From Allopseudospirillum japonicum (GTDB lineage Bacteria > Pseudomonadota > Gammaproteobacteria > Pseudomonadales > Halomonadaceae): 64,000 nt of DNA. Where the stretch lies: positions 62,001 through 126,000 of the forward strand of contig NZ_FNYH01000008.1 in NCBI RefSeq assembly GCF_900108915.1. Direction: 5' to 3'. Positions within the stretch are counted from its first letter, which is position 1, and each line of letters opens with the position of its first letter. The position numbers and the translations under genes are program-made. Positions 59,056 to 63,883 of this stretch are shown piece after piece. The notes below the pieces were generated by a model. That model worked only from the letters and a program-made list of their open reading frames with translations. It ran no database searches and was not told where the DNA came from.

Positions 59056-59844
59056 TCAAAGTAAAAAACGCAAGCCGACAGCGACAAGAAGGAGCGCAAA
59101 AATTTGCTTAAGACGTGTGCTTGGGAGCCTATGTGCTAAATGCGCACCCATGCGTGCAAAGGGGACACTCATCAGCACAATCCCAGCAAACGCAGGCCAG
59201 TAAACAAAGCCTGTCGCACCCGCAGGTAAAGCCTCTAACCCCCAGCCTGTGTATATGTTGACTAAGGCACCCACTATAGCAATGGGTAAACCACAGGCGG
59301 CAGATGTGGCCACAGCTTGATGCATAGGCGCATTACACCAAGTTAAAAAGGGTACGGATAAAGAGCCACCACCAATGCCAAAAATAGCAGAGGCCCAGCC
59401 AATCAGGCCGCCGACGCCTGTTAAGCCAGTTTGTTTGGGGATTTGTCTGCTTGGCTTAGGTTTAAGTCCTAGCCCCATTTGTAGGGCAACTATGAGAGCA
59501 AAAACCCCAATAATTTTTTGTAATGCCCACCCAGAAAGTAAGCTAGCGGTCATAACACCCAAAGCAGAGCCAAACACAATGCCTAAGGCTAAAGGCTGAA
59601 ACCAATCCCAACGAACCGCCCCTTTATCTTGGTGTGCTTTCACCGAGCTGAGCGAAGTGACTACAATGGTCGCCAAAGAAGTACCTACAGCAAGATGCGT
59701 GAGGATATTGACATCCATACCTTGGGCGGTAAAAGTAAAAACTAAGGTGGGTACAATAATTAAGCCACCGCCAATACCAAATAATCCGGCAAGTGTGCCG
59801 GCCGCTGCACCGAGAAATAAGTAAGTTGTTAATGTCATCAACAT
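59056..59844 (-). CDS. TauE/SafE family membrane protein
   Basis: This 262-residue inner-membrane protein has about eight helices and two repeated halves, each with the family motif GxxxGxGGG (AGLFGIGGGLIIVP at 18 and SAIFGIGGGSLSVPF at 150). The family exports sulphite, sulphoacetate or other small organic anions. The gene starts 3 bases after the stop of the sensor-kinase gene on the same strand, so they are cotranscribed and perhaps coupled. The exported compound cannot be told from the sequence. Confidence 0.9.
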   Translation of the reverse strand: MLMTLTTYLFLGAAAGTLAGLFGIGGGLIIVPTLVFTFTAQGMDVNILTHLAVGTSLATIVVTSLSSVKAHQDKGAVRWDWFQPLALGIVFGSALGVMTASLLSGWALQKIIGVFALIVALQMGLGLKPKPSRQIPKQTGLTGVGGLIGWASAIFGIGGGSLSVPFLTWCNAPMHQAVATSAACGLPIAIVGALVNIYTGWGLEALPAGATGFVYWPAFAGIVLMSVPFARMGAHLAHRLPSTRLKQIFALLLVAVGLRFLL

Positions 59845-59847
59845 AAA

Positions 59848-62800
59848 TTAGGGGTCCATAGAAGAGCAGGAAAGGGACTCAGTATGCAAATAAGCCAGCC
59901 ATTTGGCGACCATTTGCCGCAACTGCGTTGGACGATAAGGTTTCCCAAGATAATCATTCATGCCAGCAGCAAAAAAGGTATCCCTATCTTGTTCCAGTGC
60001 ATTGGCGGTTAACGCAATGATAGGAATACGGCGATTATGACCATGCAAGCTCGCGCGCCAACGTCGTGTCGTCTCAATTCCATCAATTTCGGGCATAAAA
60101 ATATCCATGAGTACCAGATCAAAATCCGTATGTTTGGCACAATGAAGTGCTTGGTAGCCATCATGCACTACGCTGACCTGATAACCAGATTTTTCCAAGA
60201 TTGCCCGAGCTAACATAGTGTTCACTGGACCATCATCCACCACTAAGATATGTGCATCCTGCACTTGAGTCTGGCTAGCCTCGATTGGTTGACAAGGCAA
60301 ACATACACTAAACACAGATCCTTGGCCGATCCGGCTTTTGACCTGAATATCCCCGCCCATTTGTTCGATTAAATGCTTACTTAACGTCAAACCAATACCA
60401 GCACCACCGTGTTCACGCCCGTATCCCATTTCTAATTGAGAGAAAGGTCGAAACAGATGATTAGTATCTAACGCATGAATCCCAACGCCTGTATCACTGA
60501 CAGCAAAACGCAACCATAATTGATTGTTATGGTTGGCTTTTGGATGAGCGGGACCTTCGATTAAATCAACGTTTAAATGTACATGGCCTTGGCGAGTAAA
60601 TTTAATTGCATTACTCATTAAATGGTTTAAAACTTGCTTTAATCGGTATTCATCTGCAAGCAGATATTGCGGAATGCGTGTATCTATATCTGCTTTAATT
60701 TGTAATGCTTTGGCTTGTGCTTGGCTTTCAAATTGAGCTAGTACATCCTGTACTAAAGATTCTGGCTGAAAAGGAATAGGCTTGATTGAGGTTGTGCCCT
60801 GCTCTAAATCAGAAAGTTGGCCGACATCTTCAATAATAGCAAGTAACTGATTAGAAGATTCCAAAATAGCATCAATAAAGCCTAGATGCTGCGCATTAAA
60901 GGGATGCTCTTGCGTTTCACCGGCTTCTTTAAGTAACTCGGCAAGTCCAATCACTGTATTTAAGGGCGCTCTGGCTTCATTACTGACTGCAGCAATAAAC
61001 CCTGATTTAATTTGTGATGCTTCACGTACGCGTTGTGAGTTAACACTTAAACGGGTTTGTTTTTCTACAATAGAGGACATATCTAAGCAAATACCTAAAA
61101 AAAGTGCAGCTTCTTGTGTCTTATCCTCTATTTGTGGCTGCATATGCAAGGGAACTAAATATAATAAAAAGTTCGTGCCTTGGCTTTGATCTCTTGTGAC
61201 TTGTAATAAACGGGTTTCTGGGTATAAGGGCAAGGCTTGCTGACGAAACAACTCATAGATTTTTTCTTTTGTTTTTGGCTGTTGAATCCCAAGCCCTAGA
61301 TGATTTTCCCAAGCGTGATTAAAATATAAAACCTCATGTGTTGATGTGATTAAAACACAAGGCTGATGGCTACGTTGAAACCAGAGCTCACAAAGACGTT
61401 GGCACCAAATATAAAACTCTTGTTGATGATATTCATTAAAGCAAACCCCTTGTGCAGAGCAAGCGCGGTTTAATACTTTTTGTAATTGAATAAACTCTTG
61501 TGTATTTGTTAGTGCTTCGATATCCAAGCTAAAAGGATTGGTTTTTATTTGCGGTAATTTTCCTTTATCATCGGGTGTGCTTTGATGATTTTTACTCAGT
61601 TTATTATGCGTGAGATAGAGAGAGGCCAGTGCTTCCGTAAATAAATAAGCTGTCCGTTTTGTTCTTTGCCACATTAAAATAATGAGAATCAGCCATAAGC
61701 TAATGCTGACACCTGCAACGGCTACGAGAATACGTTGATGCTCGTGGGATAAAGTATAAGTTTCTAAATACAAGGTTGGCTCAGGGACCACGAGCATAAA
61801 TTTCCAGTTTGTCTCCGTGACCGAAGCCCAGGCCACCACACTTGTCTGCTGCAAATCAACATGGAGCAACCCAGAGGGGTCTTGACGCATAGGTAAAGTT
61901 AAACTAGCAAAATCTGGACGCTGAAATAAATTGAAGGTTTCAGGTTTAAATTGATTGCCTAGCTGAGAGCTTGGCGTTTTAGGGTAGGTATGTTCGGTTA
62001 ACTCTTTAACTCCCCAATCTTGTTCTGCTTGTGGCGGCATCGCAAGGACCATACCTTCAGCATCAAGTAGCATGGCATAGGCACCGTCCCAAGGCAGCTC
62101 AATTTGTTGTAACTGGCTGACAAATGCCTGCACGGTAATATCCATACCCACAACAGCAGTTAGGGTATTGCCTAGATAAACAGGGGCTACATTGGAGAGC
62201 ATCCAGCCGCGCCCAGCAGGATCTAAGTAAACAGGCGTCCATACTGGAGTACGTCTTGGATTGTGTTCTTCATCTGCGCTGTAAAAAAAAGCGTGATCAC
62301 GTACATCTGTATGTGGAGGATATTGTTTAAGTACTTGAATAAAAGGGTAAATCACATGCTCAGTACGAGCTGTGTTAATATAAACTTGTTGAATAAGAGA
62401 TTCGGTGCGGTAGAGGTCAGTCATTAAGCTTTGTAAGCTCAACAAGCGTGCGGCAGTGAGGCGATCTTTTTGTGGATCTCTTGGATATAGAGCAGAAAAA
62501 AATAATGCCGCGCCACCATCGTTAAAAGCTTTATGTAACACACCCTCATCTGTAACTTGTAACTCCGCATCCGTTGGATTGGGTGCTGGATGAATTAAAG
62601 CGCGTTGTGTTTGACTTGCGAACAGCTGTCCACGACGCGCAATGGCATCGAGACGGATATTTAAGCCACGCGCTTGTTGCTGGACGAACTCTAATAGGTG
62701 CTTTTCTGTGCTAGCAATGAGCACCTGCTGGGAGGCACGTGCTTCCAGCAGGGTATAAGCAGCAAAGCCTATCCCGAAAATAATCGCAATAGCAAAAAGT

Positions 62801-62886
62801 GGCAACAAAACAAAGCGTTGCTGTAATTTCCACCACCACAGAGTTAAAGGTGGTGCGGATTGTTGATCTTCATCCATTAGGCTCAA
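59848..62886 (-). CDS. hybrid sensor histidine kinase with Cache-type sensor; H-box His replaced by Asn
   Basis: This 1012-residue membrane protein has a first helix (about 28-50), a dCache-like periplasmic sensor (about 60-380), a second helix (about 385-407), a PAS-like region, a HisKA-type dimerisation domain, an HATPase domain with NAIKF, DTGVGI and GGAGIGL boxes, and a receiver domain with the phospho-acceptor Asp in LVLMDIFMPEIDG. The expected H-box SHE-R-PLN reads SNEARAPLN, with Asn636 (codon AAT) instead of His. The rest of the machinery looks intact. It shares an operon with the TauE-like gene. Whether it still acts as kinase, phosphatase or only sensor cannot be seen. Confidence 0.9.
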   Translation of the reverse strand: MSLMDEDQQSAPPLTLWWWKLQQRFVLLPLFAIAIIFGIGFAAYTLLEARASQQVLIASTEKHLLEFVQQQARGLNIRLDAIARRGQLFASQTQRALIHPAPNPTDAELQVTDEGVLHKAFNDGGAALFFSALYPRDPQKDRLTAARLLSLQSLMTDLYRTESLIQQVYINTARTEHVIYPFIQVLKQYPPHTDVRDHAFFYSADEEHNPRRTPVWTPVYLDPAGRGWMLSNVAPVYLGNTLTAVVGMDITVQAFVSQLQQIELPWDGAYAMLLDAEGMVLAMPPQAEQDWGVKELTEHTYPKTPSSQLGNQFKPETFNLFQRPDFASLTLPMRQDPSGLLHVDLQQTSVVAWASVTETNWKFMLVVPEPTLYLETYTLSHEHQRILVAVAGVSISLWLILIILMWQRTKRTAYLFTEALASLYLTHNKLSKNHQSTPDDKGKLPQIKTNPFSLDIEALTNTQEFIQLQKVLNRACSAQGVCFNEYHQQEFYIWCQRLCELWFQRSHQPCVLITSTHEVLYFNHAWENHLGLGIQQPKTKEKIYELFRQQALPLYPETRLLQVTRDQSQGTNFLLYLVPLHMQPQIEDKTQEAALFLGICLDMSSIVEKQTRLSVNSQRVREASQIKSGFIAAVSNEARAPLNTVIGLAELLKEAGETQEHPFNAQHLGFIDAILESSNQLLAIIEDVGQLSDLEQGTTSIKPIPFQPESLVQDVLAQFESQAQAKALQIKADIDTRIPQYLLADEYRLKQVLNHLMSNAIKFTRQGHVHLNVDLIEGPAHPKANHNNQLWLRFAVSDTGVGIHALDTNHLFRPFSQLEMGYGREHGGAGIGLTLSKHLIEQMGGDIQVKSRIGQGSVFSVCLPCQPIEASQTQVQDAHILVVDDGPVNTMLARAILEKSGYQVSVVHDGYQALHCAKHTDFDLVLMDIFMPEIDGIETTRRWRASLHGHNRRIPIIALTANALEQDRDTFFAAGMNDYLGKPYRPTQLRQMVAKWLAYLHTESLSCSSMDP

Positions 62887-63037: not shown

Positions 63038-63883
63038 ATGTGCCTAGCACTTTTAGCGTGGCAGGCTTCATCTGCCTATCCTCTTGTACTTGCAGCAAAC
63101 CGTGACGAAGTCTATCAGCGCCCAAGTGCCCAGCTGGCTCCTTGGCAGCAAGCAAGTAAGATGCCAGACTGGCCTCAACCTCTGTGTCCCTTATTTGGCG
63201 GCCGTGATTTACAAGCTCAGGGTGCTTGGCAGCTTGCAGATACCCAAGGCCGTTGGGGGATTTTAACCAACTATCGACATCCAGATGAACGCCTAAAGAC
63301 CTATGCAGTCTCACGAGGTCACATTCTACCCTTTTGGGTTGGTCAAGCGATAGAGGCAAGGGACTTTAATCAGTGGTTACAAAGACATGCCTCAGAATTT
63401 GCTGGATTTAATTTACTTTGGGGTGACCGCCAGCAGGCATTTTGGTTTAGCAATCGTGCGGCATCTACGCAAGTGCATCCTTTAGATCCAGGGGTGTATG
63501 TGCTTTCTAATGCCCTATTAGATACACCTTGGCCTAAAGTACAGCGTTTGCATACTCTCGCTTTGCCTTTGTTGGCAAAATTATTACTCAATCAAGCACC
63601 GAATCCAGCGGCTTGGTGGCAACTGTTAAACGACCGTCGTCGCCCTGCAGATCAGGCTTTGCCCGATACACAGGTGGGTTTAGTTTGGGAACGCCATCTT
63701 TCTAGTATCTTTGTCCATGCAGGGATGCCCTCCAATTTAGACGAAACAGTCACGACCTATGGAACTCGAGCTTCTAGTTTGTTTTGGCACACGCAAGCGC
63801 AAGGCTATTTTGCAGAGCGTACTTATGATGTCAATGCACAGATTGAAGCAGAAAAAATACTCGCTTGGCATTTGCGGGCGTGA
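63038..63883 (+). CDS. NRDE/TANGO2 family protein
   Basis: This 281-residue protein starts with MCLALLAWQ and the family motif ANRDE (about 19-23). The N-terminal Cys2 becomes the first residue after Met removal, which is also how NTN-type hydrolases start. The TANGO2 family has roles in haem or lipid handling in eukaryotes, but in bacteria its function is unsettled. GAGGAG stands 11 bases before the ATG. It is divergent from the large sensor kinase and ends before a short palindrome at 63894. Confidence 0.88.
   Translation: MCLALLAWQASSAYPLVLAANRDEVYQRPSAQLAPWQQASKMPDWPQPLCPLFGGRDLQAQGAWQLADTQGRWGILTNYRHPDERLKTYAVSRGHILPFWVGQAIEARDFNQWLQRHASEFAGFNLLWGDRQQAFWFSNRAASTQVHPLDPGVYVLSNALLDTPWPKVQRLHTLALPLLAKLLLNQAPNPAAWWQLLNDRRRPADQALPDTQVGLVWERHLSSIFVHAGMPSNLDETVTTYGTRASSLFWHTQAQGYFAERTYDVNAQIEAEKILAWHLRA

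Follow-up and report, generated by a model that had tools for sequence, protein, structure and literature searches.

Architecture of a hybrid histidine kinase-like protein

The window analysed here, a stretch of 64,000 nucleotides from Allopseudospirillum japonicum, carries a hybrid histidine kinase-like gene on its minus strand (59848–62886). The gene encodes a protein of 1012 amino acids and starts with TTG at 62886 or ATG at 62877. On one side lies a TauE/SafE-family permease gene (59056–59844, minus strand), which is a neighbour via ancestral gene order, and on the other side lies a divergent TANGO2-family gene (63038–63883, plus strand), which serves as a synteny anchor; both were assigned by Pfam and by gene-order comparison.

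The encoded protein has the domain order dCache–PAS–DHp–CA–REC, and all coordinates given below for its parts refer to the minus strand. Based on the sequence and predicted helices, the first membrane helix lies at about residues 24–50 (62737–62817) and the second at about residues 385–407 (61666–61734), both boundaries being approximate. Between them is an extracytoplasmic dCache-type sensor (about residues 60–372; 61771–62709), for which the Pfam dCache_1 match is weak in the query and strong in orthologues and which agrees with fold prediction. A PAS-like region (about residues 505–602; 61081–61374), indicated by secondary structure and by a Pfam PAS match in one orthologue, precedes the DHp (HisKA) domain (residues 604–696; 60799–61077), which consists of two long helices (604–657 and 665–696). 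The CA (HATPase_c) domain follows (residues 745–866; 60289–60654), and then the receiver (residues 880–993; 59908–60249), which bears the family signature VDDGPVN and was delimited by Pfam, motifs and alignment. The Pfam scores were 37.9 bits for HisKA (627–697), 81.5 bits for HATPase_c (745–866) and 92.6 bits for REC (880–993). An AlphaFold model (mean pLDDT 71) showed the same parts: two membrane helices with a Cache-like sensor between them, then a PAS-like region, the pair of DHp helices, the CA domain and the receiver.

The N, G1, F and G2 boxes of the CA domain were found by eye (NAIKF, DTGVGI, LFRPFSQ and GGAGIGLT), and the receiver contains a complete set of active-site residues (D884, D885, D928, T960 and K982), with Asp928 (60103–60105) as the predicted phosphorylation site according to the motif and the orthologue alignment. 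These motifs and the Pfam matches bear out the statement of an earlier first-pass annotation that the ATP-binding boxes and the receiver Asp seem intact. In searches with NCBIfam models, the whole protein was nearest to the TorS/BarA/LuxQ/ArcB group (best match TorS, 314 bits versus a cut-off of 676), and it reached none of the equivalog cut-offs of the named hybrid kinases (TorS, BarA, LuxQ, ArcB and others). The nearest solved structures for its DHp-CA part were ShkA, GacS and RetS, with DivL among the relatives.

Replacement of the phospho-acceptor histidine

The plus strand reads ATT at 60979–60981, giving the minus-strand codon AAT and placing Asn636 at the H-box position of the phospho-acceptor His in the alignment. 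The first-pass annotation had given this substitution with the exact residue number and coordinates. The H-box is VSNEARAPLNTVIG (VSNEARAPLN with the preceding Val), compared with the canonical HisKA box SHELRTPLN. A second replacement, overlooked in that annotation, affects the Thr at H+4, which is Ala640 here (60967–60969, by alignment); a Thr or Asn residue at this position is required for HisKA phosphatase activity (PMC3510030), and the corresponding E/DxxT/N motif is absent. In addition, H+2 is Ala, a residue shared with the nearest orthologues, and the acid at H+1 is intact. No nearby substitute His was found in the first DHp helix of the protein. As a control, we inspected the other HisKA matches of the same genome, and all 26 of 26 had His at the aligned position, leaving the Asn636 protein as the sole exception. 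Of the features of an active HisKA hybrid kinase, the protein has a CA domain with all four boxes and a C-terminal receiver with a complete active site, and it lacks the phospho-acceptor His.

A syntenic family largely without the histidine

We then searched for orthologues in the GTDB family of the window's organism (275 genomes). A contig scan with a single protein query gave three loci only, including one in Halomonas sp. LBP4 (L032), to which G101 is 100% identical and which thereby fixes the taxonomic position of the family. The relatives found in the family have the receiver in common and, in some genera, the sensor as well. Orthology was supported by synteny at 25 loci, and the receiver sequences of the orthologues formed one clade with a support of 99. 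The exact VDDGPVN pattern occurred in 14 of 18 sampled family genomes, and none of the other sampled genomes of the order had it in a true receiver. One match outside the family (G443, L141) was set aside as a chance match, there being no receiver in the reading frames with the motif; the plasmid matches, which represent only distantly related kinase and regulator genes, were rejected as orthologues as well. In several genera of the family (G015, G016, G007, G017 and G003, that is, g16, g17, g8, g18 and g4), the gene seems to be missing completely, through either loss or early branching.

The alignment of orthologues at residue 636 had been named beforehand as the comparison in which His would speak against the reading. 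Among the 92 orthologues, the H-site was occupied by Arg in 70, Gln in 8, Ser in 6 and Lys in 4, and by His, Asn, Ala and Gly in one each; the only His (G027, L042) belongs to a protein without a CA domain. The His is missing from 91 of 92 orthologues while the gene is kept at a conserved locus, as is expected of a pseudo histidine kinase. The acid at H+1 was kept in 89 of the 92, whereas H+4 was Thr in one and Asn in one. The receiver was strictly conserved: its three Asp residues were kept in 92/92, the Thr in 91 (Ser in the other) and the Lys in 91 (Arg in the other). Fewest changes favour Arg as the ancestral H-site residue with a later Arg-to-His change in G027, but several separate losses of His are possible. 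The conservation of the locus across this Halomonas-containing GTDB family, in orthologues that lack the His, also agrees with the earlier view that the gene is not decaying.

The 25 orthologous loci share one place, in which HAD–RppH–PtsP–TANGO2 lie on one side of the kinase gene, with TANGO2 divergent from it, and TauE, Lgt, ThyA and FolA lie on the other side. TauE adjoins the kinase gene in 19 of these loci and is absent there in 6. Other families of the order have this cluster but not the kinase gene, with TANGO2 and TauE often as direct neighbours, indicating that the kinase gene was inserted there during the history of this family and that TauE is an inherited neighbour. The two genes are thus neither always kept together nor absent apart, and the gene-order comparison speaks against the TauE-like exporter as a coupled output, which the first-pass annotation had put forward as a candidate. 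In the window's genome, Lgt–ThyA–FolA and PtsP are located elsewhere, and TANGO2, the kinase gene and TauE have remained neighbours; the RppH-PtsP-TANGO2-kinase-TauE-Lgt-ThyA-FolA cluster is split into at least three places in this genome (59056–63883 versus L162 and L172).

Several other features of these loci were observed. A large L,D-transpeptidase-like gene lies between PtsP and TANGO2 in some genera (L043:6653-8575), and another such gene (L041:12481-15162) appears internally duplicated. Most members of genus g5 have a very different thymidylate synthase (31–34% identity) at the usual thyA place (L041, L107–L110); the outgroup locus L144 has a ThyA of a type similar to that of g5, and the g5 case looks like a gene replacement. 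Furthermore, another kinase of the window's genome (L034; G000:C14:45069-47558) has a canonical SHELRTPL box and a dCache sensor related to that of the pseudokinase (34% identity across the sensor). Relatives of this kinase occur in g7, g20 and g23 as well as in another family (G056), and it is possibly a sister of the pseudokinase family.

Graded erosion of the kinase core

Among the members examined, only the window's protein has a CA domain with all motifs, which makes it the least reduced member seen. In g23, g3 and g7, the CA stretch is present but has lost its ATP-binding residues. In g5 and most Halomonas-type members, about 65–95 residues separate the H-site from the receiver, versus about 225–250, and the CA domain is gone. 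Overall, most orthologues have the CA domain deleted and the DHp domain down to one helix, with the receiver kept; in NCBIfam searches, the best matches of the reduced orthologues were to the receiver part of ArcB- and BarA-type proteins.

A species tree was built from Lgt, FolA, PtsP and RppH, with ThyA left out as it occurs in two kinds. In this tree, g5 lies outside, the window's genome groups with g23/g3 (91/88) and the Halomonas clade stands beside them. Since g5 and the Halomonas clade are separate branches, the CA domain was lost at least twice. Within g3, the dN/dS ratio was low for both the degenerate kinase core and the receiver, about 0.05–0.15 in the pairs that allowed an estimate of dS, a rough value because dS is high and partly saturated; from this ratio, the degenerate g3 kinase core appears to be still evolving under constraint.

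These patterns allow a tentative historical reading, which we rate at somewhat below even odds: in the salt-loving Halomonas group, a hybrid kinase may have become, in steps, a phospho-receiver that is anchored in the membrane and supplied by other kinases, losing first the His and later, on two or more separate branches, the ATPase domain, with the receiver unchanged. The window's protein would then be a preserved early stage, in which the ATP-binding domain has its own job without the His.

A probable sensor pseudokinase with a working receiver

At the sequence level, the phospho-acceptor His and the phosphatase Thr are missing, the receiver and the locus are conserved, and the kinase core has been lost family-wide. 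The best reading is a pseudokinase whose conserved receiver gets its phosphate from a partner (an HPt or a second kinase), or one that regulates another kinase by binding, as do RetS and DivL. Between these, we favour a sensor pseudokinase, with a probability of roughly 0.58, namely a hybrid histidine kinase that lacks autokinase capacity and retains its receiver as a working phospho-module, with Asp928 phosphorylated in trans. Rewiring has probably made the gene product dependent on a different protein for its signal. According to this model, autokinase capacity would have been lost and the receiver retained; Asp928 would receive phosphate from an HPt domain or another kinase; the dCache sensor and the remaining DHp helix may tune this phosphate exchange; and the protein would act as a membrane-bound phosphorelay branch or a phosphate sink. 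The strict receiver conservation in the 92 orthologues fits the earlier suggestion that the receiver may be phosphorylated by a partner, and the loss of the His together with the conserved locus supports a maintained protein that would do without the usual autophosphorylation route.

With regard to possible partners, the receiver resembles those of ArcB, BarA and TorS in the NCBIfam models, and receivers of this type pass phosphate to and from HPt domains. Several HPt proteins are encoded in the genome, and no phosphotransfer partner linked by gene order was found. One candidate, a free-standing HPt at G000:C18, was rejected, being actually the N-terminal piece of a frameshift-split cheA. This cheA (L176, G000:C18, about 128.3–131.6 kb) seemingly consists of two pieces in different frames, an ORF of 111 aa that bears the HPt and, after it, a remainder of 498 aa, and the frameshift is either real or an assembly error. 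Two limits apply to the favoured model: the reactivity of the receiver is not readable from its residues alone, and the intact CA domain of the window's copy, which a receiver-only role does not explain, is the main unexplained feature.

The strongest competing explanation is that the protein regulates a kinase by binding, in the manner of RetS and DivL. Here, the pseudo-DHp and CA domains would heterodimerise with, or dock onto, a kinase such as a BarA/GacS homologue and alter its activity, the receiver being secondary or acting on the partner's phosphate. The intact CA domain of the window's copy and the structural relatives of its DHp-CA part (ShkA, GacS and RetS, with DivL among them) point in this direction, as does the BarA-like tripartite kinase of the same genome, which has an intact His and an HPt domain and is 35% identical over DHp-CA. 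However, in most orthologues the CA domain is gone and the DHp domain is one helix, while the receiver stays, which places the conserved function more in the receiver than in the kinase core. We regard regulation by binding as the less likely of the two models; it and the receiver model may both be true.

Alternatively, in a mixed dimer with another kinase, the CA domain of the window's copy could phosphorylate the partner's His. None of the ATP-binding boxes is missing, and complementation in mixed dimers is known for other His-to-Asn kinase mutants; however, there is no evident partner and, as the orthologues have no working CA domain, such a trait would be limited to this genus, so this explanation is improbable. 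Even less probable is the first-pass proposal of a phosphatase for another response regulator. His-to-Asn kinases can retain phosphatase activity, but the residue needed for it is Ala640 in this protein and is Thr or Asn in only two of the 92 orthologues, which weakens the proposal. Finally, a sequencing error or a recently broken gene, suggested by AAT being one base from CAT, can practically be dismissed in view of the full 1012-aa frame, the lack of His at this site in orthologues from the conserved locus, and the two further changes in the H-box (H+2 and H+4), which a single base error is insufficient to explain.

Significance and relation to known systems

Searches of a literature library yielded no study of this pseudokinase family. 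What is known of pseudo histidine kinases comes mostly from isolated cases, whereas here one syntenic gene occurs in most genomes of a family. Its members form a graded series, from an intact-looking core without the His through degenerate cores to the removal of the ATPase domain, with the same conserved receiver throughout. These natural variants provide an ordered set for asking what a receiver does without its own kinase and which kinase parts are dispensable. Moreover, the domain-based annotation "hybrid sensor histidine kinase" would predict the wrong activity for most of the family.

Among known systems, RcsD of the enteric Rcs phosphorelay is a degenerate kinase-like membrane protein that keeps one phospho-module, and it gave a weak model match over the kinase region of the pseudokinase; the difference is that RcsD kept an HPt domain and the present family kept a receiver. 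RetS of Pseudomonas aeruginosa, a hybrid kinase, belongs to the GacS network and acts through heterodimers (PMC12189002). The kinase region of RetS ranks with the top fold matches of the pseudokinase. In contrast to the pseudokinase, RetS keeps its His, and its sensor is different.

In DivL of Caulobacter, the His is replaced throughout the orthologues, by Tyr or by Ala (Magnetospirillum), and the protein has no kinase or phosphatase activity (PMC4211667). DivL is a structural relative that shares the HisKA-type DHp and CA domains and the loss of the His across orthologues, but it is described as having PAS domains and DHp-CA and no receiver, whereas in the present family no part is as conserved as the receiver and the CA domain has disappeared from most orthologues. 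Residues essential for His kinase activity are also missing from the subfamily 2 ethylene receptors, of which ETR2 and EIN4 have kept a receiver (PMC1781942), as has the pseudokinase; however, these plant receptors act through CTR1 and have an unrelated sensor. The ChrS pseudokinase was experimentally selected (PMC9491836). CCNA_03265 (CC3162) of Caulobacter is a hybrid kinase without the conserved His in which the receiver Asp is kept, and for which HPt phosphorylation or heterodimer formation has been proposed (PMC11481889). It resembles the pseudokinase in both respects, but it is a single protein, in which a nearby His may take over, and not a family that spans a lineage. Pseudo histidine kinases are a known kind, and what is new here is a lineage-wide syntenic series in which the receiver is fixed and the kinase core is eroding.
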